Shown one piece after another: positions 41,001 through 62,048 of a stretch of 64,000 nt of DNA. The notes below the pieces were generated by a model. It saw nothing but the letters and a program-made list of their open reading frames with translations. It had not been told where the DNA came from and made no database searches. Origin of the DNA: Umbelopsis isabellina (Eukaryota > Mucoromycota > Umbelopsidomycetes > Umbelopsidales > Umbelopsidaceae); the NCBI GenBank assembly GCA_016758905.1, contig JAEPQZ010000016.1:596779-660778 (forward strand). The letters are read 5' to 3'. The number at the start of each line of letters is the position of its first letter. Within the stretch, counting starts at the first letter, position 1. Both the position numbers and the translations under genes were made by a program.

Positions 41001-43160
41001 AGTTATCGACGCATCTTTAGCAAGCAAAGGCAAGACGAGATGGTATTTTGCTTTTACTCTGGTATCATGCAGATCACCAGCGCAACCAGAGCATGCATCA
41101 ACGCTCTTACTGTCTGCTGCCATGAATTACCGCTATCTGTATCAAAAATGCTCAACGAGATCCTCCTAAAGATGTCTCAGATTATTTCGGTCAGCAGTGT
41201 TTCTGTTCACATTTTAGAGTTCTTATCTGGACTAGCAAGGCTGCCAAATCTGTATGCCAACTTCACAGGAGACATGTACAAACCAGTATTTGCCATTGCT
41301 TTGAATTACATACAATACTCTCGTTCGTTGACCAACCCACATCAGTCACCGACAATGAACTCGCCAACAACCCAGTCACCTAGTACTTCTAACCAGCCCA
41401 GCGATGGCAACAATGTGACATCGACTACCAATCAGCCATTTCAAAGTGCCTTTGCGCAATATCTATTAATAATGGCATATCAAGTCATAACCGTTTGGTT
41501 CATTGCCGTGCCATTAAGAGAACGTCGTCGACATGTAGCTTTCATCATTAAAGGCTTACTGAGCGCCAACTCTGCAGCACAAGTTATCGACGAACAGACG
41601 TTGACCTGCATTGACATGCTGTCGAGATTTAGCTTTGCCAATGTGGACTTGGCACCAAAAAAATCCATTGTTTCAAATATTTTAATGACTGCTATACCAT
41701 CATCAAGCTCATCTTCACATGATGCTATCTCGACTAGTAAACAAATTTCACGAACATGGGTGCAAGGCAATACACTCTTCACTCTAAAAACGGCTGCAAC
41801 TACTGGTTGGGTGGAAGCCACCATACGAAGACCATCCGGAACAGTCTCTCTCATGTGCAGAGTGGAAAATGAGTTACGCGGTAGTGACATTGACCATCTC
41901 ACGCTGCCTGCATTCTTGATGATGCATTATAATCCAGATCCTGGTCTCGCTCTACTCAGTGCTGAAGAGTCTGCTACACATTCAAGTGATGGCGCGAGTA
42001 AAGATGATGTGTCGGATCCTTCGACACATCACACAACTGGTGAACCTATTCACAGCAACGACCCAACTAAAGAGTCTTCAACTAATACCGTAAGAGAAAT
42101 CTTGACCTCTTCTCCCTCGAGCCAGAACAACGGCCAAGCATTGAGCCACTTGCGTAAAGATGAGCATTCTTTCGACCCCAGCTTTCTTTATCTACAATTT
42201 GGCAACTACCCAGATTTATCGGGTCTTCGAGATATAATCCCTCCCATACCCGACGATGAAACTCATCAGCGAGCTCTGAGTATGCTTGATCGTGTTGCCG
42301 TGGTCAACTTCCACAAGATAGGTGTCATATATGTTGGTCCTGGTCAAACTCATGAAATTGACATATTAGCCAACCAACATGGCTCTCCAGACTATGTCAC
42401 TTTCCTCAATGGTCTCGGTACTATTCAAAAACTGAATGGCCGTACTGGCAACACCGGTGGTCTCGATAGAGAAATGGACATTGACGGAAAATATGCTTAC
42501 TTTTGGAATGATGATATCACGGAGATGGTGTTCCATGCTGCAACTCTTATGCCCACCGATCTAAGCAGAGATCCTCAATGCAGTGGAAAGAAACGTCATA
42601 TCGGAAACGACTTTGTTACCATTGTGTACAATGATTCTGGCAAAGACTATGCTTTTGATACCCTACCTGGTCAGTTCAATTTTATTAATATCGTAGTCTC
42701 CCCGCACTCTGAGGATACCTCCAAAGTTATCCTTGGCTCGACAGAAGATCAACGAGTCTCCACTAGCGCGGCAGCGAATGCTTTTGCAGCTGGTCAACAC
42801 CCAGATCCCTACACAACTTCTACAGGCGTGGATAATACCTTTTTCAAAGTGGTGATGCAGCGACGACCAAACATGTCAGAGATTGGCCCTTTGACAGAGT
42901 TCAAAATGGTGTCTTCACAAACACTGCCAGGTTTTATAAGACAAATGGCCCTTCATGCCAATATCTTCTCACAAGTGTTCTTGGAATCGGGTGCTGGCGG
43001 TAAACATGAGTATGTATCGAACTGGTGTGAACGGCTCCGGCAGATCAACAGAATCAAAGAACGTCTGGCCAGTAGTAAAAATGATATGCCCTCTTCTAAA
43101 TCCAGTAAAGATGGTATCATGGCTCTTGAACCCATGCTGGATTTTACTAGATATACCTGA
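38082..43160 (+). CDS. TSC2: Tuberin (TSC2), Rheb GTPase-activating protein, single exon
   Basis: Tuberin forms the TSC complex with hamartin and inactivates Rheb, restraining TORC1. The uninterrupted frame encodes 1,692 residues from ATG 38,082. The N-terminal two thirds is alpha-solenoid (DUF3384/tuberin type), including SVHILEFLSGLARLPNLYAN then FTGDMYKPVFAIALNYIQY, a block typical of TSC2. The C-terminal RapGAP-like domain reads HKIGVIYVGPGQTHEIDIL, YAYFWNDDITEMVFHAATLM and KKRHIGNDFVTIVYNDSGKD. The Asn in HIGNDFV corresponds to the catalytic asparagine thumb. The end reads RQMALHANIFSQVF and WCERLRQINRIKERL as in human tuberin. Every neighbour of comparable size is split by many introns, whereas this gene has none. 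S. cerevisiae lacks TSC2, but fission yeast and many other fungi keep it. Confidence 0.95.
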   Translation: MANKGSPTTATSGWLSNLLRPKGSGLTIESCLNLNNLNSNAPLDARPIIPLLEASQSLGSRARLIKEFTVICQRYTFTHLENVFFTVQDIMEPSAPKDARHVVFEFMAACIDSHYESLGMARVTFYNALKDHHVYEDLKDMHMVFSKLIKDGRDITNFEKNIIKLLISWLNMAIAHSPAEKPTASINAHHSAPQTTDATKSEGAQAVVHDPSGKLAIPHLEQIVRLITAIMKFNFAMFEEKEVTELIFAIKETFWHSEDTNDQRACLEFADVIVPYGFVPINGLQPYLDILCRAVAVNDSYASSQQLATLSMSIFKNLLRSHCAHSAVLTLCKSMNQTLASGSTEELIAFGSLVLLSHAAWTSESRATNLNNVTSSTVLLSYMRRALKQNNAIINVQIFKSLLSYVQNQTISMTDWDIFWEICREYSQTLLLVDDDTGREIITAVVKSAQLAYAGNSSETTPEPLLNASPSNVVQQYFILLNHVKHLYDKKEYKGPLDGFMHILHMLRSYLPQDMALILLAYYDKEHMFLPSSDGWLSLLEETSTTFFISQSSSRDVRLNMLDIILKVCEATYDLYLNKLVLNIIIPIADMVRTSRDKQVIEKSVSLIVKVASDCTDRDAFCRLISALESCSKCKCLEHPKSSHGEKLSTHQSISERKRAVSQMTRQPPKHYTQGKPPRPTASLSSSTASDSNSKFRTNPSSHASFCLGTASATGLAQIFQRLLHGSDPELCLIVYNCIISIAKGYTDNTAVHDTSRLVALDVLLRLRCRPDHRIFLSTSVEATTQYSFAFGDRSLLGTDGDAARTNVQAQNMATSTQDTQPNNSHSAGQTQRNRPEPDGLGIDHTFSLRDDEEMSWYTERPSRILVSYSASDKTENSNCRVLPATELLHTLLEVITKDTNWTTVSFVLEALPAQLSNKHLFCGATQVLQQLRSTLCEVITKHSFLENVKNMPPNLKRNDLNIMAYKLLTIMISYRRIFSKQRQDEMVFCFYSGIMQITSATRACINALTVCCHELPLSVSKMLNEILLKMSQIISVSSVSVHILEFLSGLARLPNLYANFTGDMYKPVFAIALNYIQYSRSLTNPHQSPTMNSPTTQSPSTSNQPSDGNNVTSTTNQPFQSAFAQYLLIMAYQVITVWFIAVPLRERRRHVAFIIKGLLSANSAAQVIDEQTLTCIDMLSRFSFANVDLAPKKSIVSNILMTAIPSSSSSSHDAISTSKQISRTWVQGNTLFTLKTAATTGWVEATIRRPSGTVSLMCRVENELRGSDIDHLTLPAFLMMHYNPDPGLALLSAEESATHSSDGASKDDVSDPSTHHTTGEPIHSNDPTKESSTNTVREILTSSPSSQNNGQALSHLRKDEHSFDPSFLYLQFGNYPDLSGLRDIIPPIPDDETHQRALSMLDRVAVVNFHKIGVIYVGPGQTHEIDILANQHGSPDYVTFLNGLGTIQKLNGRTGNTGGLDREMDIDGKYAYFWNDDITEMVFHAATLMPTDLSRDPQCSGKKRHIGNDFVTIVYNDSGKDYAFDTLPGQFNFINIVVSPHSEDTSKVILGSTEDQRVSTSAAANAFAAGQHPDPYTTSTGVDNTFFKVVMQRRPNMSEIGPLTEFKMVSSQTLPGFIRQMALHANIFSQVFLESGAGGKHEYVSNWCERLRQINRIKERLASSKNDMPSSKSSKDGIMALEPMLDFTRYT

Positions 43161-43440: not shown

Positions 43441-43512
43441 TCTCAGTTAGTATAGTGGTGAGTATCCCCGCCTGTCACGCGGGAGACCGGGGTTCAATTC
43501 CCCGACTGAGAG
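43441..43512 (+). tRNA. tRNA-Asp (GTC), copy 1
   Basis: This is a 72-nt cloverleaf without intron. The acceptor stem is TCTCAGT/ACTGAGA with discriminator G. The A box overlaps TAGTATAGTGG, the anticodon loop CCTGTCACG carries GTC, and the B box is GGTTCAATTCC. A run of nine T follows directly and would terminate RNA polymerase III. Solo LTR A begins 83 bp beyond its 3' end. Confidence 0.97.
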
Positions 43513-43594
43513 TTTTTTTTTGGTTAGGTCAGAAAGCTTCACATTTTGATGCCTACTACTACTACTAGCGATACCGATAGCTAACTTAGCAACT

Positions 43595-43815
43595 TGTCAG
43601 CCTAACTTTGAGGACGGTCGCCAATGTGACTTTGACTTGGAGTCATATTGGACACCTCTTTAGAATAGTCACGTCTAAATATTTTGTTAGAAATCAGTCA
43701 CACCGATAAGGTATAAAAAGAGAATTAGACATATGAATAAAATGGGATCAATTAACCTCACGAGAAGTTCACTCGTCTGCAGGGATCTTATCAGAGACTA
43801 AAATAGAGAACGACA
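43595..43815 (+). mobile_element. Solo LTR A of a tRNA-associated LTR family
   Basis: This 221-bp sequence starts TGTCAGCC and ends GAACGACA. It is nearly identical along its length to copies at 54,224-54,447 (inverted) and 57,599-57,824. It contains a TATA box (GGTATAAAAAGAG) and a polyadenylation hexamer (GAATAAAA), as LTRs do. The flanks are CAACT and ACTTA. A 4-bp ACTT duplication fits only if one T was lost at the left edge. No internal coding region adjoins it. Confidence 0.8.
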
Positions 43816-46563
43816 ACTTAATAGCTGTCGAACTTTTACTATTCATATTTCAGGTGTAATCAATTATACCAAAATTTTGAAGGCTGATTATTTCCAAAAT
43901 ATCCAAGCAAGATAGGGACATGGGAAGTTGAGATTGACGACCCTCCTGGAAGTAAGGTCTAGGCAACCTACTTATGTTTCCAAAGGGAGCAGCATAGGAT
44001 CTGCTGATGAAGATGAAAGACCAAACTTATTGCTTGGAAAAATACCGAGTCAAGCTTTATATCCGCATAAGCAGCGATGTTACAGTCTATGGGGCACAAC
44101 TCGTCATTGGGTTCCAAAAAGTATCGAGATGATTGAAAGTGAAGAAAAATTATACATTGCAAGTATAGAGATTTTAAGGGCTAACAGCAATTTCAATAGG
44201 TATGAATTTTCATAATTCGCCATCTTTCGTCATCACCAGTAATCATAGCTTGACACTCCAATCATAGTTTTAAAAGAAAAAGAAGCAGCTTTAATGAACA
44301 CGTGTTCGGCAACTGGATGTAAGTTATATTGGATAAATTGTAACTTACAATGTTCTATCAGTCAATATAAGAGAAAATTTTTAAAGATTTGATTAAAAGT
44401 ATGTATTTAGAACTATGACGGACCTGTTCAGATTCAGTGAGTCTTCTGCACCATCCTCACTTCTTCTTTTCATGTAGATCCTTATGTTTGTTGGCGGAAA
44501 CTCGAGCACGAGATATTTGCAAGAGAGGAACTGACCTGTTTGCGTTGATATGATGACTATAATACATGTATTTTAAATCAACAAACTTATTCTCGCTGTC
44601 GGATGGCCACAAAGCACATATTAAGCAGTTGGTTTTACTGTCGTACAACTTATCAACTTCAAAATTATCACTACTCACCCTTAGGTGAGATGCATAATAT
44701 GCTACTACACCACAAACAGCTGATTCAGATCACTTCTGTGAGGTACCTGATCAGTTTATACCATATTCCGATCAAATACTTATCAGAAAGATATTATCGG
44801 AACAATGTTTGACGGTACAGAAAATCGAAAATAAGCGACGTTACTAATCATTATGTGTGATTCCTATTACGGAAATCAGTAATCGAGCGTAAATGAGTTG
44901 CAAATACTGTGAATTTCAGATATGTGCTATGACCCTGTCGGCTTTTGATTGTTATGTTATGTTGTTGCCTTCGTTGAGCATGGAAGCTAGATGTATAAAT
45001 TGATATTCTTTATCTTCTATGTCCGATAATTGTTAGATTCTAGTCGCTATTGCTGTTGCTTCTTCCTTTAGGAGCTCCGTACAATTACCCATACTTACAG
45101 CACTCCACAGCTGTTAATATTTAACTTGCGCTTAATCGAGTTTCGTAGAGTACACCCATGCACCTGCTCGTTACGAAATGACGAAATAAAAATGTCAAGC
45201 TTGTATTAATCTGTAAAGTAGGACATTATGCTAGTCCAGACCACACTGGAAAGCGCAATTTTTTCAACATTGATTGAAATATTTACAGACATACACCCGA
45301 ATTCAATGCATCATAATTGAAAGTAAGTATATATGAGGTGAACAACATACCATATATGCGATATCGAGAAAAAATGAGATACCCAAAATGACGAAGTAAA
45401 GCAGAGCTGAAGTGACCTGAGACACTTAAGTTTTTAAATGAGTATATATTTTACATATGTAACAGAAGCCTGGGTTTACTTTCCAATCAAGATATGACTA
45501 AAGTGCTATAAGTTACGGAAGACAACAATGGAGGTGGCAGTAAGATTTGTGACACTTCATTCGCGTTATAAACGACAAATACCAGTCCAGCACTTTCACT
45601 CCAATGATAGTATGGCATACTTACACCATTTCTAAATTGTGTTATACTTACTCTCCAAAATCTGACATCAATGATTTGGAATAATCAGTGAATATCAAGA
45701 TCTGTAGAGTGTGCCATCCAATAAAGTATTTGTCTATAGATATCATAGCTGACAGTACATAGTCAGCTGTAAAAGCTCAGGAGTAGAGGCTGAAGAATTT
45801 TTTGGAAAAAAATAAAAATAATTAAATAAAGACTGGTATGCTAATTTTAATGTAATAAGATGAAGCAAGGCAAGGGCAGAACTTCGCAAAAATGAAGACT
45901 TACTTGCCAAGGTTTAAAACTAATGTAATAATAGGTCCAAATCAGCCCATTCTCCATTCTAGACATGGTAATCATCAGATGACACGTAGCTAATAATCTT
46001 TTGTTTGACATCTTAATGTATTACCGGCAATGGGAGCACAACCACGAGCAAAATTGTCGTGGCTAGTGATGTTAATTTGTCTTGCTCCTGTTGGGACAAG
46101 CATGCCAATGTGTCCCAATCTGTTGCAACATAGCAAGTCCTGTTATCTTCTTGACTCAGGATATCTGACTCATGATACCTGTGATCTATCAGTGTGTGGT
46201 CATTTGTACTGCTTATGCTCCTATATATACTCTTCTTTCTTGTCTAAACCCTGATATGGACAAAACTTGACTTGGTCAAGTATAGCAAACGTTTGAAACA
46301 GCAAACATATGGAAACATATGGAAGCAAACTCGAAAGTGATAATAAGAGCCCAGGCAATAGACTATGTGAAGCCAGCTTAGGAAGGTAAAACCAACAGAA
46401 AATCCAGAGATTACAAATTACAAAAGTTGGAACAACTTTTTGCAAAAACTATTGGTAATATACTGTGATAAATATTATAGTAGACATCATGGCACAAATA
46501 TGTTTCATGTCGCTTGTATCTAGAAAACTCTTAAGGGAGCTGTCGACCAAAAAAATAACCACA
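43816..46563. other. Gene-poor, AT-rich stretch between solo LTR A and tRNA-Asp 2
   Basis: About 2.75 kb with no gene I can support. One 95-codon open frame (43,928-44,215 +) includes QRCYSLWGTTRHWVPKSIEM and looks more protein-like than the rest. It shows no family motif and is followed by frames full of stops, so it may be a decayed fragment. The remainder is low-complexity AT-rich sequence with scattered short frames. Confidence 0.35.
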
Positions 46564-46635
46564 TCTCAGTTAGTATAGTGGTGAGTATCCCCGCCTGTCA
46601 CGCGGGAGACCGGGGTTCAATTCCCCGACTGAGAG
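46564..46635 (+). tRNA. tRNA-Asp (GTC), copy 2
   Basis: It is identical over all 72 nt to copy 1, with GTC anticodon and intact A and B boxes. A terminator of CTTTTTTTTT follows. The next ~90 bp of 3' flank are similar to the 3' flank of copy 3 on the other strand, which indicates that the two arose by duplication of a unit larger than the tRNA. Confidence 0.97.
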
Positions 46636-47598
46636 CTTTTTTTTTATCAGGTTTCAGATGACCTGTTATCTTTTCTCGTTTCGATTGGCTCCTTTTTACT
46701 ATCTGTCAATTTTGATTGGCTTAATTAGCGCTGCTTCTAAGAACCTTTTTACCATGGTCCGGGTTACTAGATGATAACCCTATTGTTCCATAAGTAACTC
46801 AAACAAATTACGGAGCTTCACGGGCCCGTAAGTGTATTATCCTATATGTTGGGGATAACCGCCTATTTCAAACTAAAATTTAGGAACTTATGTTATTTTT
46901 ATTGATCTACGGTATTTGCTATCGTATTATAGTACAGTTAATAAAAACTGAATCTCTTACAACAGCACTGAGATATTGAACAAGTACACTGAAATCACTC
47001 AATTATGTATTGATTGACCCAATCGTTGCAACCAACCTCACCTTTAAAGAACCAATTTAAGAAGATATAACCATTTTACACGATTGGCTGATTGAAAAAA
47101 ATTGAGCATCGATAAACATTTATGAATTCCAGGCATGATAGTACATTGCCATACAATGCTATAATTGATATGAGTTGCAGCTAGTGTGATTATATTGCTA
47201 TTTACCGCCTATTCAGGGAGGGATAAGAATATTGAGAAAGGTGTGCTAATATAGAAGAAGCAAACCCACTGTGGACATTGAGTCAGAGAGCATTGCTAAT
47301 AGTGATGCAATATTTTCTATTCGTATTTAGACGGATAAGCTAGGTTTTGCGTGGGTTCTTCAGCAAGTGGCAATAACGGCAACACAGAGCTTGCTATAGT
47401 ACTCGTATTCTGTTTGGTCCACGAGTCGGATGATGAGTAGATAGTAAAAAAATCTTGCGAAGCCACCACCCCAGGTAAAACGCTACATGAGCCTGCAGGG
47501 ATGTTGTAAAATTGTCCAATCAAATTGATAGATATTGAAAAAGTAGCCAATCAAAACGAGGAAATTTAACAAGTCATCTGAAACCTGATAAAAAAAAA
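46636..47598. repeat. Spacer between tRNA-Asp 2 and 3, ends in inverted duplicated tRNA flanks
   Basis: The left end (46,636 to about 46,728) and the right end (47,598 to about 47,508, read on the minus strand) are homologous. Both read a T-run, ATCAGGTTTCAGATGAC, then a CTCGTTTYGATTGGCT motif and a CTATCAATTTGATTGG-like motif. The spacer is thus bounded by inverted copies of the tRNA-Asp gene plus flank. The interior has no recognisable gene. A short palindrome GGGTTA-ctagatga-TAACCC lies near 46,763. Confidence 0.6.
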
Positions 47599-47670
47599 CT
47601 CTCAGTCGGGGAATTGAACCCCGGTCTCCCGCGTGACAGGCGGGGATACTCACCACTATACTAACTGAGA
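47599..47670 (-). tRNA. tRNA-Asp (GTC), copy 3
   Basis: This is the exact reverse complement of copies 1, 2 and 4. The T-run terminator lies at about 47,590-47,598 on the minus-strand reading. Its 5' end faces a gypsy-type LTR whose edge lies about 20 bp away, in the region where RNA polymerase III initiation complexes assemble. Confidence 0.97.
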
Positions 47671-47689
47671 TGTTCTTGTCGAAACGCTT

Positions 47690-48117
47690 TGTAATGTCGT
47701 ACTGATTAAGAACCTCGTTGAGGTATGTGGACTCGTATTGGGCCAACTTCTAAAGAATAAGTTAAAGAGATGTCAATCCTCCTTTATTCATTGTCCGAAG
47801 ACAGAGAGTATTTATATAGGCAGGTAGAGCCACAGGTAAGCGCCATCGTGCGCCACCTGGGCTGACCGAGAACACAAATGGTAATAAAATAAGGGAACAG
47901 AAGTGGTGACGACACGGCAATACAAGACTCATACGTTTCCGTATCATTTCCGTATTACGTCCCCCTCCCAGAGTCGGCAACACCTAAAAGCATTGGCAAT
48001 CGACAGAAACACAGAAATAAGGAAACAGAAAATAGAAAAGGGATTCTACATCAAATATGGTAGATCCACAGAAACTTCACGAAAAGTAGAAACCTTGACA
48101 ACACAATAGCCCAACAA
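47690..48117 (-). mobile_element. Probable LTR of the adjoining Ty3/gypsy element
   Basis: Read on the minus strand, the segment starts TGTTGGGCTATTG and ends GACATTACA (TG...CA). It contains a TATA box (CTATATAAATACTC, at about 47,805-47,820) and a following AATAAA (about 47,787). It directly follows the integrase open frame (stop at 48,135), as a 3' LTR should. A purine-rich stretch (GGAGTGAAGGAAGAG) lies just before it and could be the polypurine tract. The exact edges are uncertain; a narrower TG...CA pair is 47,771-48,103. I found no second copy in the window. Confidence 0.55.
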
Positions 48118-48134
48118 TGAGCAACACTCTTCCT

Positions 48135-51100
48135 TCACTCCGCTGAGAGATTCCTTCTCTCCAAAAAGGCTTGTAGCTGATCACGAACTTCGGCCGAATT
48201 CTGCACCTCTGGTCTCATAGCCGCGCGTTTATGCCAGGGTTTCAAATGGTATCCATTCACAGCCTCCTCAATCCTTCTGCCAAAAGGCCCAACCAGGTGG
48301 TAGGTGCCGTTGTTATTAGCTCTCGATACAGCCAACGGGTCAATCCACTTGTTATCAAGTTTGTGTCTGGGATAGTGGTCCCTCAGCAACATCAGATCTC
48401 CTACTTCGAAAGTCCTAGGTATAACCGTCCTGTTATACCTCGCCGCAGCACGCTGCCTCCGTACCTCGTCGCGAGCACGCGCTTCTTTCCAGAACTCCCT
48501 CATAATGCCGTCAATGACATGTACTCGCCCCAGTACTGCTGCATCATATTCACCTTCCACGTAGTCCCGTGACGGACTTGGCCAAATTGCTGGTGTCCAA
48601 ATGTCGTAACCATATAGGAGTTTCGCCGTTGTATGACCAGTTGACTCATTCGGCATTGAACGAATGGCCAACAGCGCCGAATCCAGAAAGATGTCCCAGT
48701 CCGTCACCCTCTTTTCCACGCGGACCAACTTCGCGAGAACCGAGACGATAGTCCCGTTCATCCGTTCACACAAACCATTGGTTTGTGGCCGAAAGGCGGT
48801 AGTCGTGAGATGCTTGACCTGCATAGCCCTCAGAAAGTTGTGCACATAGTCTGATGTAAAGTTACCACCGCGATCCGTCAGGATGTACTGGGGCAACCCA
48901 TGTTGGCACTTCACTTGGCGGTAGAGAAACTCGGCAGTAGTGACAGACTGGACACGTGCGCACCAATTCCTTCACGCGGTCGAACATTTGATATCCTTCG
49001 TATTTGATACGCAACTGTCTCCACGTATTCTGAACCTTAAGTGGCCCTCATTGTGGACACGTTCCACATAACCAACAATGTTTTCTAAAGAAGGACCTCT
49101 GGACCAAGGTCGTTCCTTCCTAATCGCTTGTATAGCGCATCGTTTTGTACAATGTAGGGTCTGGAGATCCTTCTCAGATTCTCCCGTTGCCTTCAGTTGT
49201 AAGCACTTGGGTAAATTCTTTCGGTCAGATAGCTCTTGATAAGATTGTATTTTTGTACTACCATTGTGTTTAAAAAGGCATCCATGAGCGACAGGCAGGA
49301 GCGTCACCTGGTTTTAGTGTCTTGTCTGACGGCGTTTTCAACGTATGCACTGACGGGTATTTAATACGATCCCGTCTTTTCCTTGACGCAATATTTTAAG
49401 GGAAGTTAGCCCTGATTTTAACGTCTTCACTGACGTTTCTTGATATTTCTTACAGCAGACGAGAAGCGCATCCGCAGGGTTCTCGGAACCCTTCCGATAC
49501 TTGATCTCGAAATCTTACTCCATGAGATCTGCAACCCATCTGGTCATCTTATTAGACGGCCTTGGGTTGGAGAACACATATTGTAGTCCTGCGTGGTCGA
49601 TAATCAGGACGAATCTGCGACCAGCCAAGTAGTGACGGAAATGCCTCACTGCCCATACCAAGGCCAATGCCTCGAGATGAGTGGTGGCGTATCTTGTCTC
49701 TGGGCTATGCAGAGCACGCGACGCATAAGCAATTACAGTTTCTTCATCTCCCGTCTTGCCATCAGGGCTTTTGAGATAGGACAGCACCAAGTCCCAAATT
49801 GGACGCATCAGTTGACAAAATCTGCACCTGTTATTCATCCGGGAATGCTAGTAAGGGTGGATTGCTAAGATGCTCCTTGACAACGTTGAAAGCATTCAAC
49901 TGCTCAGGTCCCCAGAGGAATGATTGTGGTCCCCTTAGCAGCATCGCGAGAAGTTCGATGACAGAAGCAAAGTTGGGAACAAAACGACGATGGTAGCCAG
50001 CGCTACCTAGGAATGTCTGTACTTCGTCCTTGCTCCTCAACTCTCTCATGTTCAACAACTTGCTTACGTTCTCGTTTTTAGGCGAGAGCCCACTAGACTT
50101 TATAGTGTGACCCAGATAGACCACATCTTCCCGGGCAAACACGCACTTCTTCAATTTTAATCGTACGTTGGCTTCTCGGCGAGCCTGCAGTACCTTTTTG
50201 ACATGATCGACATGATCTTCGCGGTTTCTTGAAAATACCAAGATGTCATCAACAAAAATCATAGCAAAGACACCAATATCCTGTCTCAGAAATTGAGTCA
50301 TCGTTCGTTGGAGCGTCGACGGCGCAGCAGACGACCAAAAGGCATCACCAGAAACTCATAAGTACCATACTTAGTTATAAAAACCCGTCTTTGCGATTGA
50401 CTACTCTTCCATGGCCGTTTGCCAGAAGCCGGAAGCAGCATCCAAGGTAGAGAATACCTTAGAACCTCCAATTGAGTCTAACAGCTCGTCAATATGGGGT
50501 AGGGGGTAAGTGTCCCTCACCGTCTTCTTGTTAAGCTTCCGATAGTCAACGCAAAAGTGTAGTTCACCGTCTTCTTAGCCACAAACAAAACAGGTGAAGT
50601 CCACTTCCCATCAGGCTCGCGGATCAAACCTAGACTGTTCAAATTGCTAAGTTCCTTCTTCAATTGCTCCGACTCTTGCCACGTAGTACGGTATGGTCGA
50701 CTTGTAACGGGCACATCGTCAACAGTTTGTATTTGGTGCATGGCACCGTTGATTACACCAAATTGCTTGTACTCAACAAAACAACCTACATATTCTTTTA
50801 CCAATCCTGCCATATCCGGATCTTCCGCAACCTTGATCTTTTGAGAGACTTCGTCGGGCCGTTGCTCGACAGATCGAACACACACTTGATAAGCCCTCGG
50901 CCTGTTAACATCAGATCCAGATGGCATGGCGGAGACGGTGATGTTGAACTTTGGTATAGTAACAGTCCTACCTCCAAAATCGGTCAACACATCGTACTCC
51001 GCCAACCAAGGCCTTCCCTCAACACTTCGTTCATTAGCCGCTGGAAGGTGACTAGAGCATTGGTGAGAGGTGTGGCAAGGCTTTTAAAATCACGTATAAT

Positions 51101-51190
51101 ATGGCGGTAGTGCTGAGCTAAACCAATGAACTGGCGTACCTCTTGAACTTTGGAGGTCGTTTTCATTGCTGGATGGCCTCAACCTTGGAA
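48135..51190 (-). pseudogene. Decayed Ty3/gypsy retrotransposon pol
   Basis: Read on the minus strand, the domains are in order but broken by frameshifts and stops. The pre-RT segment (to about 50.5 kb) includes DGKWTSPVLFVAKKT. The reverse transcriptase follows with FVDDILVFSRNREDHVDHV (an F-V-D-D active-site box) and VVYLGHTIKSSGLSPKNENV. RNase H reads VIAYASRALHSPETRYATTH then LEALALVWAVRHFRHYLAG. An H2C2-like piece reads VERVHNEGHLRF (about 49.05 kb). The integrase core reads LPQYILTDRGGNFTSDYVHN and FRPQTNGLCERMNGTIVSVL, ending in a 259-residue frame that stops at 48,135. The right end (51,190-51,000) is a misplaced RT connection segment (VQEVRQFIGLAQHYRHIIRD), which suggests a mosaic of two related elements. 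Confidence 0.85.
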
Positions 51191-51679
51191 TCACATGGAA
51201 GAATGCCAGCTGCGGAGGTCTCGACTTGATACAAATTGGCGTTTGCATGTTGTTAAGAGAGTCACCCCTTCCTTCAGATAATCAATTTTTCGCTTCTTTG
51301 CGTTAGTATCCTGGACATCGTCGTCAAGCATGTCTATGGCTTTGTGATATCGCAATTCTGCATCTTCAACGACACGTAAAAGGCGACCTGCCATTGATTC
51401 ATCCACCGTGACTGATTTTGAAAAATCTGCTTTGCGGTGTAGTATAGATGCTGAATGAAGGGATCATGATCATGATCGGCCAAGAATTGCTTCTACTCGA
51501 TAAAGAACGAGCCAAGAGCATCAATTGGGTCCAATGGTGTTTTCTCCATATGCGAATTGTTGACAATCGATTGAGCTTCTTGCAGTTTTTAAGAAAACGG
51601 CGAACATGGCTCTGGTGCTCTGCTTCACTACGGCTGAAAATCCAGTGTCATAAAGGTAAACCATAACAACTTTATCAAT

Positions 51680-52150
51680 GAACTAATGGTAGTACTTTGA
51701 ATTCGTAGTGACCATATCGGACGGTGAACGCGGTTTTCGGCATCATCTTTTGGTTGAATGCGGAGCTGATGATAACCGCTGACAGAATCAAGTATCGTGA
51801 AATGCGATGCTCCCCTGAAGATGCTCTAAATATTCGTCGATTCGTGGCAAGGGATACTTGTTGCCGATAGTGACTTTGTTCAGAGCTCTGTGATCAATGC
51901 CGAGGTTCATCCAACTCAAGTGGACTCATTTTTAATGGTGGTCGATTGAGCATGCGAGGCAGTTCTCGGGCAAGTTCAGGGAAATTAGCGACGTATTGAG
52001 CCACACTGCCAGTCTGTTTCAGCACAAGCATTTGTTGGCGCGCCATAGCCTCTCAGTTTCCTGGCTTGAACTCTAGGCGAAGCAAAAGCGTGAAGTCACT
52101 CCAAAAATCCACTAGAGGGGTGTGTCCCGGGAAGAGGAGTATTGCTGCCA
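51680..52150 (-). pseudogene. Second gypsy remnant: gag fragment joined to RT fragment
   Basis: On the minus strand a gag-type helical block (LVLKQTGSVAQYVANFPELA, about 52.05-51.97 kb) runs directly into reverse transcriptase motifs ([20 protein letters not shown], then GYHQLRIQPKDD and AFTVRYGHYEFKVLPL, down to about 51.68 kb) in shifting frames. Protease and the start of RT between gag and this block are missing. This is therefore an internally deleted remnant, distinct from the element at 48.1-51.0 kb. Confidence 0.7.
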
Positions 52151-52199
52151 TCATAAGATGGCATCGTCGCAGAGGCAGATCGTGGCAAATTTCACTGCT

Positions 52200-53010
52200 T
52201 GGTTATCCGTCATACCGGTTGCTTCCGTGTAGCACTGCTGGGAAAAAACCAGTTTTCCGCAGCGGACGCAGTACGCACACCATGATAGGGCTCAGAGAGG
52301 CTGCTCTCCTAACGTAAAAAAGGAAATACATTGTCTTCGATTTGATCCGTATCAGCTGAGTGTGGTATTGGGATGTTTGCAGGCCGTTTTCCACTACGAA
52401 CATGTCGTCTAAATGCGCTGCCATTCGTATTCCTTTGCGGCGAGCCCATTTGAGCTCCGGCCGCATTTTGGTGAAGACGAGCGGAGACAAAGAAAGGCTG
52501 AATGGCAGTGCTCTAAACTGGAAATAGTTCGCCTTCCCATTGAAATTATGGATACCTGCGGGATGCCTCGTGGACTAGAAAGTGACAAAAAGGTGTCGTA
52601 CAGGTCGATGTTGGCAAACGATGGCTTTGAATTATTCATTGATAAGTCGTTTTCAGCGTCTCCATCTTGTCGTGGCGAGCTGTATTAACCTGTTGAAGGG
52701 TCTTAGATTGAGGACTCGACGCCTTTCCCCAGTTTTCTTGAATCCAGTGAAAAATTGAGAGCGTATCTCCTCTGTAGACGGAGATACCGCTTCGATTGCT
52801 CGTTTGGAGAGAAGTTGAATGATCTCGTCCTCTATAATTGTTCTGTCTTGATCCGACTGGTAGAGCGGATGAGATTGAGGCGCGAGGCCATTGCAGGAGG
52901 AGAAAGTGAACGGAATCCAGATTTCGCGTGGATATGAATTGGACGCATGACTTGTCGCTTAAACTTAGCCCCAAGCCGAGTGGAAGAACTATGAGCGTCA
53001 TCCTACTGAG
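52200..53010 (-). pseudogene. DIRS-like reverse transcriptase remnant
   Basis: On the minus strand, fragmented frames give KMETLKTTYQ, then ASIDLYD-like sequence (PSFANIDLYDTFLSL), then LVFTKMRPELKWARRKGIRM with AAHLDDMFVVENG. The FKMETLK, S-x-DL-D-A-hh and F-T-K-hh-R-P-hh-x-x-x-R-x-x-G-h-R-hhh-Y-LDD pattern belongs to DIRS-type (tyrosine-recombinase) retrotransposons. It is not found in gypsy or copia elements. Several stops and frameshifts show it is dead. Confidence 0.65.
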
Positions 53011-53029
53011 ACGTTTTTGTTGTAGTGAT

Positions 53030-53440
53030 TCCGTTTAACCGCTCAGTGGGCTATAAAGTAGTTCGATGGCAGAGTTTTTGATAACAGTATACTGTCGAAT
53101 TCTGACAACCCAGACGATTTATAAAAGGAAGTCATCCCATTTGTTTTCTAAATTGTCGTCCAAGTTAGTGAGGATTCTTCCAAGAGAGCCATTGTAAAGT
53201 TCAATTTTGCCGTTACTTTTGCGAGTGAGATGCGAAGGCTAAATTTTGGTCCTCAACAGCACCAGCCGTCCTTAGAGTAATGTCAAAGAAGTTGGATCCG
53301 CGACCTGTTAAGATCTCTTGTGAGCTGAGCCAAAAAATCTCTAAATTATGTCGTGGTATAGAAATTCAATGACAGCTTCCTCTAAGGCCACAGGTATAGC
53401 CTTGGCAATATCTACGTAGTCAAACGAAGCAACACAGCCT
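53030..53440 (-). pseudogene. Ty3/gypsy integrase core remnant
   Basis: On the minus strand, pieces in different frames read FDYVDIAKAIPVALEEAVIE, EILTGRGSNFFD (the D-R-G-S-N-F block with Gly for Asp) and SNGKIELYNGSLGRILTNLD, followed by AIELLYSPLSG. This is the DDE integrase core of a chromovirus-like element. The second catalytic Asp position is changed and stops interrupt it. Its order relative to the neighbouring gag-RT piece shows rearrangement. Confidence 0.6.
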
Positions 53441-54091
53441 TGACTCCTTTAATTGGTGTATACCAGCTATATAACCGGATATCGACTACCGACTGGCTAA
53501 GGTCAAAGAGATTTTGACACATGTCCTGTCGTGATGGACCGTGGAATGAGCAGTGACATTCATGAATGCTTTATCACTCTACATGATACATTGCTTCCTG
53601 TTCACAACATAGATTGGCTCACCTTTTTGTAACAAGGATAGTATGAACAAGGTCGCTGACGAGATCATAAAGTCTTAGGCGGGCTGGTGTGTATAGAGCC
53701 TATTCGATACACTGCTGAATTTATTGATTTTGGTATATGCACACGAACGTGAAAGGTTGGCCGAAAGCGTGCGTCAAATGTCAGCTTAATCAGCAGAAAT
53801 AAAAAGCTCACCGCGAGATCAGTTACGAAAGATATCGTTGTCTACTGCTACTAGCGATCTCGACAGTATTACAAAGACTAATATTGGAAAGACGATTCCA
53901 CAGGTGGTTATGAATGAAAATAACGGATATTTTGTTATTTCAACTCTATGCGTTACAGCTAAACAATGCATATTTTCTGAGAATAATCAACTGATGCAGC
54001 GTTTATAGTTTGTTTTTAGATATTGGCCAGTAATAAATATGTAGGATATCATAAAAATATAAAGACTGCTTTCTGTTACACAAACAGAAAA

Positions 54092-54163
54092 TCTCAGTTA
54101 GTATAGTGGTGAGTATCCCCGCCTGTCACGCGGGAGACCGGGGTTCAATTCCCCGACTGAGAG
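54092..54163 (+). tRNA. tRNA-Asp (GTC), copy 4
   Basis: Identical in all 72 nt to the other copies, with a nine-T terminator. The 3' flank (CGTCAGGTATTATCTGAC...) resembles the flanks of copies 2 and 3 until it is interrupted 60 bp downstream by solo LTR B. Confidence 0.97.
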
Positions 54164-54223
54164 TTTTTTTTTCGTCAGGTATTATCTGACTACGTTTTTT
54201 TAAATTTGTCATTTGATTGATCA

Positions 54224-54447
54224 TGTCGTTCTTATTTTGGTCTCTGATAATATCCCTGCAGACGAGTGAACTTCTCGTGAGGTTAATTGATCCCGATTTA
54301 TTCATATGTCTAATTCTCTTTTTATACCTTATCGGTGTGACTGATTTCTTTCAAAATATTTAGGCGTGACTATTCTAAAGAGGTGTCCAATATGACTCCG
54401 AACAAGTCAAAGTCACATTGGACGACCGTCTAAAAGTTAGGCCGACA
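54224..54447 (-). mobile_element. Solo LTR B with perfect 4-bp target duplication
   Basis: This is a 224-bp inverted copy of the LTR at 57,599. On its own strand it reads TGTCGGCC...GAACGACA, so the ends are TG...CA with TGTCG/CGACA inverted termini. It is flanked on both sides by ATCA (54,220-54,223 and 54,448-54,451). TATA and AATAAA signals are kept (the latter inside TGAATAAATC). It sits 60 bp past the 3' end of tRNA-Asp copy 4, in opposite orientation to the tRNA. Confidence 0.88.
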
Positions 54448-54869
54448 ATCAAATAACAGCGTTTGCAACTTCCGGGATTTCTCATCGACACGACTTCAAT
54501 GACAAAGCTCAAGCAATCGCGGTTGCGGTTATCCCAGCCAGGCTTCACACCCGAGCACCGCAGGCGAAAAATCAAGCGTCTATGCGAACAGCACGCGTGT
54601 CATTCATGATAAATCTCACATCGCCAGCATTTCGGGAACTGCCTTGCTGCGCGATCTACTGTCACAATGAAACGGACACGTTTTGCTTCCGAACACTCCT
54701 CAAAGCGGTTCTTGACAGATGCATCGTACGAGGGACCGGGCATCGTTCGGAACAGCAAAATATGGCAAGGCTCATGGTCACCGATGAGAATGCTCTTTCA
54801 CATCAATTACAAGGAACGACTTGTCATTTGAAAGACCATAAATATCACACAAAACAAGGCTAAATCCTC

Positions 54870-55940
54870 AAATTATAATGCCACAACATGATAATCATCG
54901 CCTACGTCAACACTTTGGGAGCACAAACTCACCACTCTGTTGGAACTGGCTCAACGCAATCGAAATTATTTCTGCGCACAGACACACGCTTAATTTTAGT
55001 GTACATCCCGACAAACTTCGACCAGCGGACAACAAGTGGAATGGCGCATCGCGCCAACTTCCGTTCAGCGACTGAATTGTTCGTGGGGCTCACGCAACTT
55101 TTATCTGTGCCACGCGCGATAATTGGCAGTGACTCGGTATGTGTCATGGAGATGGGAGGAGGAGGCTACGGCGACTGACCCTCCATGGTGGCCATCCGCT
55201 ATATGGTTACCCTTTCTGCAATTACACCGACTGATCATACGCGTTCCAATTCCGCGACACTAAGCTCTTCCCGATCCCGGTCAATTGACTTCGCTTCTCC
55301 AGCGAAATCTTCCCTCACTGGGGAGGCTTACAGCTTGGAGCATAAGCTTCGACGGCTGGAACTAACTGGAACAGAGCCAATGGCTGCTGACATCAGGGAA
55401 GCCCAATTTTCCAGTGCTGTCCGGCAAAACTCTATACAGGATGCCTACATCAAATAGTGTCTGACCAATGCCCAACCCCTTCAAGAGCCATAATCTCTTG
55501 TCAACTATTTGGCACCTTATACAGAGACCGCCAACTGGCGGTATCTACTCTCGCTGTGTACTATTCTGCCATTCTAGATCTGTTGGATGTCAGCCTCGAC
55601 TCACGCATCTCCACTGCTAAAGACTTTCTTCAGGCTTTACAAAAATATAGTATTCAATCGGATATTACGCAATCAGGGTACATCAGCCCAGCTCTCGCCC
55701 AGTGCGTCCATCTGAAGTTCTTGATATGCACACTCCACGATCATGCAAACCCATTTTCGCTCAAAGGATAGGCAAGTATATCAAGTCCGTGATGTCTTAT
55801 ATGCCCAGTAGTCTCAGTATCAATGGTGGGCTCTGGGCTCTACCCGTGCCCTCGCCGCCGCGCTTGGGCCGCTAGCTAGGAATACGTTTGGTACTTTTCG
55901 TCAGTTGTCCACCGAACATCACAAATTTTTTAACCAGAAG
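54870..55940 (+). pseudogene. DIRS-like element remnant: RNase H and tyrosine recombinase
   Basis: On the plus strand, overlapping broken frames at 54,880-55,085 give IIIAYVNTLGAQTH, NSPLCWNWLNAIEI and LRTDTRLILVYIPTNF. This corresponds to the RNase H segment of DIRS elements (AYVNxLGGT-SP...). Further on, frames at 55,330-55,770 read AAVRQNSI-type and then LAVSTLAVYYSAILDLLDVS and SGYISPALAQ, the N-terminal part of the tyrosine recombinase. TFGTFRQLSTEHHKFF at 55,890-55,940 looks like its C-terminal end. Many stops show it is inactive. This order (RNase H, then recombinase) is normal for DIRS. Confidence 0.6.
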
Positions 55941-56229
55941 TGCGTATTGAAGTAGTCTCTGGGGATTTATGAGCTGGAGAAAATCGGAAGGCTTGGTATG
56001 ACTTTTAATAAAGGTGGTATTAGGCAGTCGAGATTGCAAACTACGGATTATCGACAAGTGTGAAGAGCAGGCAAAACTATTTGGAAGCTGCACACGTGGA
56101 AGTCGACACAATGTCTCTAAGTTGTTGGTCGCAGCCCAGCAGCGTTTACTTAGAATATGAGAAAAGTGGATTGTCCACCCACAGTACCCAACAAAGACCA
56201 GTCTCTTGAGATGATGATATACTTAGTTC

Positions 56230-56316
56230 AGAAAGTAAATTATTCTTAGTGTTCTTCTCAATAATTACCATCTTTTTGGGTTTCAATGAGAAGAACAATT
56301 TAATAATTTACTTTCT
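56230..56316. repeat. Long hairpin (about 30-bp arms) 5' of the DIRS gag-like frame
   Basis: The left arm starts AGAAAGTAAATTATT and ends GTTCTTCTCA. The right arm (reverse complement) starts and ends identically, and only four or five positions in the middle differ. The loop is about 26 bp. It lies 58 bp before the gag-like ATG at 56,374. Confidence 0.75.
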
Positions 56317-56373
56317 ATACTGCATCTATATCATCTTTCTTCTCACTTGACTGGTACTCAACCTCTAGTAACA

Positions 56374-57337
56374 ATGTCCAATGACCAAAACATTTTGCAA
56401 GTCATTGCTTTCTCCCAAGAAAACCTATTCAACACCGTGGCAGATCTCCAAGCTCGCATCCAAGCCATGGAAAGCAACCCCAGTGCCTCTGCCATGGATT
56501 GGGCAGAACATCAAGAAGACGAGTATGTTCAAGCTCGTCTACCCGACACGGATTCACCCCACATCCCAAGTTTTTGAAATCGTTACCTTCATCCAACATG
56601 ATTTCTTCCGCACCCCTCTGCCTGACATGGATAGGAGACGTTTCCTGGCCGATTGCCCACGCAATCTGCTCAGAAACTATCAACCATCACCTGTTCACTC
56701 AGTCAACATGGGATCTATGTCGCGGAAGTTCGACACCCAATTGTCGGATATTCAATACCGCTTGTCCGGCTTCACCCAGCCCTTGGTCTACTTCTTGCAC
56801 CGAACTCTGCAGCAAGATGCCATTACTCAAAAACACATCATTGATTTCGTCAATGCCATGCACGAGCTTCTTATGGACACGGCGTCCCAGACCACGCAAA
56901 CACGTATCGACAATTTGTACCGTGGAACCGGTATGCAAGGACAAGCACCACGCTTGGATGACAGCCATCCCGCTCCACTACTGGACCTCAGGACCCTGTT
57001 GGAACACATCAGTCTACAGAAATCCCTGTTCACTGTCGGGCGCCGCCCACGTCCCCAATCACAACGGATCAAGCCAAACCTACAGGGGAGTTCCAACGCA
57101 GTCGACAATCTGTCTTCCGCAAGGGGTTTCGGCCGGGCCCAAACAATTGCAAAAGGAAACCGTCCAACAATCAGGACCAGTATGAGAACGTTTACAGTCC
57201 TTCCACAAAGCCTGGGACAGGTCAACCGACGAGTCGTGTGTCCGATCGTCATTCAAGACGAATACAAAATTCCATTCACTTCTCCTTCTCCAATTGCTGT
57301 AGGACCTCCATCTCACCCGATCTACCAGTCGGATTGA
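56374..57337 (+). pseudogene. DIRS-type gag-like gene with one frameshift
   Basis: The ATG at 56,374 opens a frame (MSNDQNILQVIAFSQENLF, then a coiled-coil like VADLQARIQAMESN) that stops at 56,577. Coding resembling the gag of Mucoromycota DIRS elements goes on in another frame to 57,337. It includes DRRRFLADCPRNLLRNYQPS and QLSDIQYRLSGFTQPLVYFL, then HRTLQQDAITQKHIIDFVNA. One frameshift near 56,570 separates the two parts. Downstream, RT and RNase H are missing. The sequence passes within 60 bp to a short recombinase C-terminal fragment, so this copy is internally deleted. The gag assignment rests on my recall of related elements. Confidence 0.55.
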
Positions 57338-57598
57338 GACAAAGTGATTCCCATGGTAACTGGATCTCTAGGGATACCTTTGAGACCTTTTATCGGTTGT
57401 CCACCGAACATCACAAAAATTTCACAGCTTAAACGCTATCCGAAACTCTGGAGCCACAATTCAGGGATCCACCATCCGAAATATAATGTCTATAAGGCTG
57501 AGATCGCAGACCGAAAGCCTTTATTCATTATATGAGGATAGTGGATCCCTGGATTGTCCACCCACCACACCCTACATAGAACAGTCTCGTGAGACGAT
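57338..57598 (+). mobile_element. DIRS-like right end: recombinase C-terminus and terminal sequence
   Basis: DTFETFYRLSTEHHKNFT (57,375-57,430) parallels TFGTFRQLSTEHHKFF at 55,890-55,940, and the DNA shares the block GTTGTCCACCGAACATCACA. Further on, a palindromic GTGGAT...TTGTCCACCCAC block and CAGTCTCGTGAGACGAT match CAGTCTCTTGAGATGAT at about 56,200. The two places are therefore homologous right ends of two copies of one element. Confidence 0.55.
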
Positions 57599-57872
57599 TG
57601 TCGGCCTAACTTTTAGGACGGTCGTCCAATGTGACTTTGACTTGTTCGGAGTCATATTGGACACCTTTTTAGAATAGTCACGACTAAACATTTGGTTAGA
57701 AATCAGTCACACCGATAAGGTATAAAAAGAGAATTAGACATATGAATAAAACGGCATCAATCAACCTCACGAGAAGTTCACTCGTCTGCAGGGATATTAT
57801 CAGAGACTAAAATAGAGAACGACACGATAATGAATACAGGCGCTTTCGGTCTGCGACCTCAGCCTTAAAGAC
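57488..57872. repeat. Inverted repeat (about 44-bp arms) split by solo LTR C
   Basis: The arm at 57,488-57,530 and the arm at 57,828-57,872 are reverse complements with only a few mismatches. Shared core on the right arm: TTTCGGTCTGCG, then CTCAGCCTTA. Without the 226-bp LTR and one CGAT, the arms would be about 70 bp apart. The LTR therefore landed inside an older foldback at the end of the DIRS-like copy. Confidence 0.75.
57599..57824 (+). mobile_element. Solo LTR C with perfect 4-bp target duplication
   Basis: This 226-bp copy reads TGTCGGCC...GAACGACA with TATA box (GGTATAAAAAGAG) and GAATAAAA. Its flanks are CGAT (57,595-57,598) and CGAT (57,825-57,828). It lies 97 bp past the 3' end of tRNA-Asp copy 5, which is on the minus strand. 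It is the closest match to copy B, differing at a few positions. Confidence 0.88.
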
Positions 57873-57921
57873 GAGAGCAAAAAATAAGCCGATCAAAATG
57901 GGAAAGCAGATTTTAAAAAAT

Positions 57922-57993
57922 CTCTCAGTCGGGGAATTGAACCCCGGTCTCCCGCGTGACAGGCGGGGATACTCACCACTATACTAACTGAGA
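57922..57993 (-). tRNA. tRNA-Asp (GTC), copy 5
   Basis: This is an exact reverse complement of the 72-nt sequence of copies 1, 2 and 4. The terminator is weaker (ATTTTTT), and its flanks are unlike those of copies 2-4, so only the tRNA body is conserved here. Confidence 0.96.
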
Positions 57994-61930: not shown

Positions 61931-62048
61931 AACTACGACCATACAAACGGAAAAGCACCGGATCCCGTCTGATCTCCGCAGTTAAACCCGTTATGGCCTT
62001 GTCAGTACTATGGTGGGGGACCACATGGGAATACAGGGTGTTGTAGTT
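61931..62048 (+). rRNA. 5S ribosomal RNA
   Basis: The sequence follows the fungal 5S pattern through its whole length. It starts AACTACGACCATAC, continues with CACCGGATCCCGTCTGATCT, CCGCAGTTAAACC and TAGTACTATGG-like TCAGTACTATGGTGGGGGAC, and ends GGGTGTTGTAGTT. The 5' AACTAC pairs with 3' GTAGTT to form helix I. A T-run follows directly as RNA polymerase III terminator. The length of about 118 nt is normal. It lies alone, so 5S genes here are dispersed rather than, or as well as, in an rDNA array. A dispersed pseudogene is possible, but I see no disabling change. Confidence 0.9.

Follow-up and report, generated by a model that had tools for sequence, protein, structure and literature searches.

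Why does each of three copies of one short repeat in a fungal genome lie just past the 3′ end of a transfer RNA (tRNA) gene? The window analyzed here, a 64,000-nucleotide stretch of Umbelopsis isabellina DNA (assembly GCA_016758905.1, contig JAEPQZ010000016.1, positions 596,779 to 660,778 of the forward strand), contains five tRNA-Asp(GTC) genes, identified with ARAGORN and Rfam, and three copies (A, B and C) of a repeat that resembles the long terminal repeat (LTR) of a retrotransposon. An initial annotation took this arrangement for a tRNA-Asp landing strip, used by an element tethered to RNA polymerase III (Pol III). The genes, the repeats and their orientations relative to the tRNA (same, opposite, opposite for A, B and C) proved to be as that annotation described, as did the gaps of 60 and 97 bp for copies B and C; for copy A the gap is 82 bp, one base short of the 83 bp given. 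The three copies are 93-95% identical in pairwise comparison, and the chance that all three would fall behind tRNA genes is 3.5e-10 for a genome with 129 tRNA genes, or 3.5e-8 for one with 600. We confirmed that the repeats sit behind tRNA genes, a pattern that is stronger genome-wide than in the window.

Position of the repeat relative to tRNA genes

We searched the assembly (22.03 Mb in 24 contigs) with the 226-bp copy C as the query, and merged its 26 matches into 24 places by joining C2:404634 with 404741 and C5:817068 with 817167. The distance from every genomic copy to its nearest tRNA gene, which had been proposed as the check on the landing-strip idea, bore that idea out: at 18 of the 24 places the repeat lies no more than 120 bp 3′ of a tRNA gene, while none lies within 700 bp on the 5′ side. 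Under uniform insertion, the chance of at least 18 such places is 2.3e-52 with 129 tRNA genes and 2.4e-40 with 600. A stricter set, restricted to copies of at least 200 bp with at least 91% identity to the query, gives 14 of 16 within the same 120 bp. One of the 18 (L022) is a truncated copy that touches the tRNA end, and was excluded from the gap measurements. Across the 17 measurable copies, the gap between the tRNA 3′ end and the repeat spans 44-118 bp; an alternative list of 18 values, drawn with slightly different edges, without the truncated copy and with a tRNA-Trp copy described below, spans 44-116 bp with a median of 63.5. Eroded edges cause the gaps at L016, L019 and L020 to vary by 6 to 19 bases between two measurements.

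Copies that lie no more than 120 bp behind a tRNA gene are spread over genes for 12 amino acids (Asp, Asn, Gly, Thr, Arg, Val, Ala, Ile, Cys, Glu, Met and Trp), so the supposed specificity for tRNA-Asp was not borne out. Thirteen of the 18 copies behind tRNA genes, including the rearranged copy L021, are oriented opposite to the tRNA and five in the same direction, a bias that is not significant (two-sided P ~0.1, hand arithmetic). The family may have had at least two ages of activity, with some copies up to 99.6% alike and others ~75-80% alike to these. Old copies, ~74-82% alike to the young ones, also lie behind tRNA-Met (63 bp), tRNA-Glu (118 bp) and tRNA-Trp (81 bp), indicating that the targeting preference persisted.

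The same relation can be read from the tRNA side. In a census made blind to the repeat, the best 63 of 1073 first-look candidates were scored with the Rfam tRNA model; nine on contig C17, which carries mitochondrial genes, were removed, and 54 nuclear tRNA genes were kept. In all, 70 distinct nuclear tRNA genes are known in this analysis, compared with 129 in the published U. isabellina genome, which is described as 22 Mb in 82 contigs with a GC content of 42% and 37 transposable elements (PMC7928374). Both flanks of the 54 genes were examined over ~260 bp each; at one gene alone, where the contig begins, the 5′ flank was as short as 52 bases. The repeat occurs within 260 bp 3′ of 10 of the 54 genes and in none of the 54 5′ flanks. 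One of these ten, the tRNA-Trp copy (81 bp behind the gene; 78% over 83 bases), was missed by the genome search; this copy (L074) and one at L038:2863, with no tRNA gene in the fetched stretch, stand outside the 24 places. Searches of the assembly with the diverged copies L024 and L025 as queries gave no new places, and two LTR words searched in viral contigs gave 0 matches.

In 69 of the 70 genes, the first 30 bp past the tRNA contain a Pol III terminator, taken as a run of at least four T. External B boxes of the kind found in Dictyostelium are unsupported: in the 3′ flanks of the 70 genes the plus strand has no exact match and four with one mismatch, and the 5′ flanks contain 4 matches on both strands.

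Nature of the repeat and the search for its enzyme

The repeat has fixed ends on both sides. By hand count, the pattern TGTNR...YNACA is matched at the 5′ end by 14 of 17 copies and at the 3′ end by as many, and TGTNR is described as the end pattern of gypsy LTRs (PMC2836005). Among the 15 copies with both ends traceable, five are flanked by perfect 4-bp target duplications (CGAT, TGAT, CGTT, CAAG and TTAT), compared with two of 210 mismatched pairs of flanks, and none has a duplication of 5 or 6 bp. By motif, 13 of 14 main-subfamily copies carry a perfect TATA box (TATAAAAAG in copy C), and 8 of the 14 have GAATAAAA, which resembles a poly(A) signal. A stem-loop in the 5′ half has both arms within two mismatches in all 17 copies checked, including diverged ones that are 75-78% alike. 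The longest stop-free stretch of copy C is 36 codons. Taken together, we interpret the repeats as solo LTRs of a retrotransposon. A tRNA-derived short interspersed nuclear element was considered and rejected, as the internal A and B boxes expected of one are missing: there is no A-box match, and the best B-box match, found in copy C only, has two mismatches.

Some copies are rearranged or doubled. L021:3035-3268 consists of two inverted LTR 3′ ends; L011:3001-3464 contains two LTRs with an inverted 13-base LTR end between them; and L023:2866-3215 and L013:2929-3226 each show partial and fuller LTR copies adjoining. These look like repeated hits or self-integration.

We found six matches to the reverse transcriptase domain RVT_1 in the assembly, none linked to the 226-bp LTR. 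By frame reading, two of these loci, on contig C21, lie within tandem units that resemble long interspersed nuclear elements (LINEs) and do not belong to this LTR family. The loci on contigs C11, C16 and C24 show no LTR match in the fetched stretches, and the reverse transcriptase in the window is Ty3-like. The LINE-like units on C21 (L031-L032, 480-499 kb) approach a tRNA-Ile gene, with the 5′ edge of the last unit's first frame 139 bases from the tRNA 5′ end, and a truncated LTR copy lies 3′ of this tRNA-Ile. The Ty3-like remains in the window (48135-51005, minus strand) are broken pol pieces with part of an integrase core and part of a reverse transcriptase; 464 bases separate the end of their integrase frame from the 5′ end of the tRNA-Asp gene at 47599.

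Coordinates of the window tRNA-Asp genes and of the repeats behind them are collected below.

Table 1. tRNA-Asp(GTC) genes and 226-bp-family repeats in the window (positions count from the first base of the window).
Feature	Position	Strand	Remarks
tRNA-Asp(GTC) gene, target of copy A	43441..43512	+	ARAGORN, Rfam
LTR copy A, 221 bp	43595..43815	+	82 bases 3′ of tRNA-Asp, same orientation; perfect 4-bp duplication absent
tRNA-Asp(GTC) gene, 260-bp 3′ flank without LTR copy	46564..46636	+	ARAGORN, Rfam
tRNA-Asp(GTC) gene, 260-bp 3′ flank without LTR copy	47599..47670	-	ARAGORN, Rfam
tRNA-Asp(GTC) gene, target of copy B	54092..54163	+	ARAGORN, Rfam
4-bp target duplication of copy B, tRNA-proximal	54220..54223	.	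ATCA on plus strand
LTR copy B, 224 bp	54224..54447	-	60 bases 3′ of tRNA-Asp, opposite orientation
4-bp target duplication of copy B, distal	54448..54451	.	ATCA on plus strand
4-bp target duplication of copy C, distal	57595..57598	.	CGAT
LTR copy C, 226 bp, TGTCG...CGACA	57599..57824	+	97 bases 3′ of tRNA-Asp, opposite orientation
Stem-loop within copy C	57625..57661	+	Arms 57625-57636 and 57650-57661
TATA box TATAAAAAG within copy C	57721..57729	+	By motif
Poly(A)-signal-like GAATAAAA within copy C	57744..57751	+	By motif
4-bp target duplication of copy C, tRNA-proximal	57825..57828	.	CGAT
tRNA-Asp(GTC) gene, target of copy C	57922..57993	-	ARAGORN, Rfam

The two tRNA-Asp genes without a copy (46564-47670) are convergent, with 3′ flanks 88% alike over ~84 bases and no LTR within 260 bp. 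A second LTR-like repeat, at 46060-46330, has no other match in the genome, which made it unusable as a control family. Copy C lies inside the remains of another retroelement (55876-57872), in which a Gag-like open reading frame (56381-57337) stands between similar repeats (55876-56215 and 57368-57598) and an inverted piece (57827-57872) forms the last part, ending 49 bases 3′ of copy C's tRNA-Asp gene. This element has named relatives in Umbelopsis ramanniana and Fennellomyces, and a single weak Gag match at another place in the genome; its Gag-like product may resemble that of DIRS-type elements. Upstream of copy A's tRNA gene, positions 38082-43160 encode a tuberin-like protein of 1692 amino acids, whose best named relatives are Umbelopsis proteins (86% over 82% of the searched part to one from Umbelopsis sp. 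WA50703).

Independent insertion and competing explanations

Joint amplification of tRNA genes and repeats as one block was named by the initial annotation as an outcome that would undo its proposal. Paralogous tRNA loci that lack the repeat argue otherwise. The tRNA-Cys gene at C2:399870 has no insertion, and its 3′ flank is identical to that of the inserted tRNA-Cys gene at C2:404927 at 59 of 59 bases up to the insertion point; directly past that point, a stretch of 45 bases is 76% alike to what follows the LTR at the inserted gene. Likewise, the tRNA-Glu genes of L024 and of the inserted locus in L025 are 84% alike over 203 bases, with the match ending at the LTR edge, and the L024 gene is collinear with a second, uninserted tRNA-Glu gene of L025 at 77% over 265 bases. 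When the two L025 genes are compared directly, support from the far side of the insertion consists of a single 30-base match. These uninserted tRNA-Cys and tRNA-Glu sites show that block duplication is not the cause. In addition, two copies that are 99.6% alike lie behind tRNA-Gly and tRNA-Thr genes on different contigs, indicating movement and not descent from a shared locus.

Joint amplification does find some support in an inverted tRNA-Gly pair at L011, whose flanks are 98.7% identical across 77 bases and whose gaps are both 74, and in the alignment of copies B and C together with their tRNA-Asp genes (405 positions at 82%). Yet the gaps of B and C differ (60 versus 97 bases), as do their target duplications; across the family, isoacceptors, distances and target duplications all differ, and similarity of the 3′ flanks outside the LTR is confined to genes for the same amino acid, except for a weak 47-base match between tRNA-Asp and tRNA-Gly. 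The L011 pair may be one event; for most copies block amplification is ruled out, and as a general explanation it is scarcely credible. We consider it very improbable, too, that insertion was random and that selection then cleared all copies except those behind tRNA genes. The U. isabellina genome is compact and gene-dense, with 9030 genes in 22 Mb (PMC7928374), which would favor such clearing. The 3′ target of 129 tRNA genes, however, is ~15 kb in 22 Mb, while intergenic DNA probably amounts to megabases, and the 5′ side of tRNA genes holds none of the 24 places.

The main alternative to a solo LTR concerns the identity of the repeat: the copies could be miniature inverted-repeat transposable elements (MITEs), short non-autonomous DNA transposons mobilized by a Ginger-type transposase related to gypsy integrases. 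This transposase, and not a retroviral-type integrase, would then seek out the 3′ side of tRNA genes. All copies lack a partner LTR and an interior, one copy (L021) has two 3′ ends in inverted order, and the repeat ends are somewhat, if imperfectly, alike past the terminal 5 bases. Ginger elements have TGTNR ends and most have 4-bp duplications, a Ginger2-type gene is described in a fungus (PMC2836005), and a single Ginger element is reported in Umbelopsidales genomes (PMC7928374). But the inverted repeats of Ginger elements are described as ~40-270 bp (Ginger1) and ~50-180 bp (Ginger2) long (PMC2836005), against 5 perfect terminal bases here, and Ginger1 duplications are CCGG or CCGT, unlike all five of those listed above. 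The TATA box and poly(A)-like signal stand in LTR order, and the assembly contains no match to a Ginger rve domain; the lack of an H2C2 match shows little, as that search gave no signal with any positive control. We therefore regard a Ginger-type MITE as quite unlikely. A further possibility retains the LTR retrotransposon and changes the cue: the 3′ side would be marked by stalling of a replication fork or by open chromatin, as has been discussed for Tf1 and Sap1, and not found through contact with a Pol III factor. Forks that run head-on into a tRNA gene arrive from its 3′ side, and the 44-118 bp window is broad, both of which fit this route; we hold it to be unlikely, if less so than the Ginger-type MITE.

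Our own account of the mechanism draws on position, in that the insertions lie past the terminator, are indifferent to isoacceptor, occur in mixed orientation and leave the A and B boxes untouched. We propose, with a probability of roughly 0.7 for the explanation as a whole, that a gypsy-type LTR retrotransposon of Umbelopsis integrated ~44-118 bp behind the 3′ ends of many kinds of tRNA gene, past the Pol III terminator, and duplicated 4 bp of target as it did so. Most likely, a protein at the downstream face of the tRNA transcription complex would have held the integrase complex in place, with TFIIIC over the B box and terminating Pol III as candidate tethers, and the integrase would have cut the first accessible DNA past that tether. 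Later recombination between LTRs would have removed the coding interior and left the solo LTRs. The sequence itself shows the position of the repeats, the side they take, the range of isoacceptors, the paralogous sites without an insertion, the ends and the duplications. No full-length copy was found in the assembly, and the origin of the repeats as retrotransposon LTRs, the gypsy type of the integrase and a Pol III factor as its tether are inferred.

Several observations weigh against this account. The 26 matches include no LTR pair (no same-orientation pair 3-10 kb apart), and the assembly yielded no interior and no intact integrase; its sole rve match is the broken piece at 48135-48914 of the window, which falls below the family cut-off and is unlinked to the LTR. 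Ten of the 15 traceable copies lack a perfect 4-bp duplication, and the inserted tRNA-Cys copy is rearranged and also lacks one. At six of the 24 places the 120-bp limit does not hold. Near-full-length copies stand upstream of a tRNA gene at two of them, by 754 and 1438 bp, and the one at 1438 bp has a perfect target duplication; at another two, old copies are 215 and 279 bp away on the 3′ side; the remaining two have no tRNA gene in the fetched stretch. Finally, for a second class of Pol III gene, 5S rRNA, considered as an alternative target, the best 47 of 604 candidates scored yielded three genes (window 61931-62049; C5:2125-2243; C20:883-1001), all within ~2.2 kb of a contig end.

Missed intron-bearing tRNA genes do not explain the exceptions, as ARAGORN with introns allowed and permissive Rfam searches found none. 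Permissive Rfam scans also found no further Pol III genes at the two 5′ exceptions and the two loci lacking tRNA genes. Two sites on C20, L027:2984-3062 and L038:2863-2942, have similar surroundings, retain the last 60-80 LTR bases only, and have no tRNA gene in the fetched stretch. The distance test and the uninserted paralogues strongly support what was first suggested from the window, that insertion in this fungus is position-specific and falls 3′ of tRNA genes.

Comparison with other tRNA-targeting elements

Among fungi, the tRNA-targeting LTR elements whose side is stated in the consulted literature are all on the 5′ side: Ty1-Ty4 of budding yeast, Tyl3 and Tyl6 of Yarrowia and beta/Tca8 of Candida (PMC5911963, PMC7175516, PMC5014426), and Tj1 of fission yeast (PMC4600332). 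The Umbelopsis family resembles all of these in being a fungal LTR-type element found at tRNA genes, but departs from upstream targeting of the Ty1/Ty3 type, as its nearest 5′ copies are the two exceptions at 754 and 1438 bp. Ty3-like elements of Rhizopus oryzae often co-localize with tRNA genes (PMC2699053), and share with the Umbelopsis family the LTR type, a zygomycete-type host and the association with tRNA genes. They may have a related 3′ habit.

The closest parallels on the 3′ side come from dictyostelids, where those offered by the initial annotation hold for TRE3 and fail for DGLT-A, which inserts 13-33 bp upstream of tRNA genes and is thus a 5′ element (PMC5006619, PMC5911963). TRE3, an L1-type non-LTR element, inserts 40-150 bp 3′ of tRNA genes (PMC5911963), on the same side and at a similar distance as the Umbelopsis repeats. 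Unlike TRE3, with its non-LTR structure and its insertion in the same orientation as the tRNA, the Umbelopsis repeats are fixed at both ends, show 4-bp duplications and lie in either orientation (13 of 18 opposite). A further 3′ parallel is Skipper-2, a gypsy-type chromovirus found 3′ of tRNA genes at 8-23 bp in Dictyostelium discoideum (4 of 8 copies), 26-97 bp in D. fasciculatum and 54-136 bp in P. pallidum (PMC5006619). Skipper-2 shares with the Umbelopsis family, as read here, the LTR type and the 3′ side of tRNA genes, but it has an amoebozoan host and copies with a known, diverged chromodomain behind the integrase, whereas the family described here is fungal and known from solo LTRs alone.

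A review reports downstream insertion in dictyostelids only (PMC5911963), and we found no fungal 3′-side tRNA targeting among the matches listed in the open-licence literature, as far as their excerpts extend. What is new here is thus most likely 3′-side tRNA targeting in a fungus by an LTR retrotransposon. We lean slightly toward the view that a fungal LTR lineage evolved, independently of the dictyostelids, an integrase that recognizes the downstream face of the tRNA complex, and kept it through at least two ages of activity. A fungus with this habit would mean that the tRNA 3′ side is usable outside dictyostelids, and would provide a second case in which to find the tether and to test which of TFIIIC, the terminator and fork stalling marks the 3′ side.

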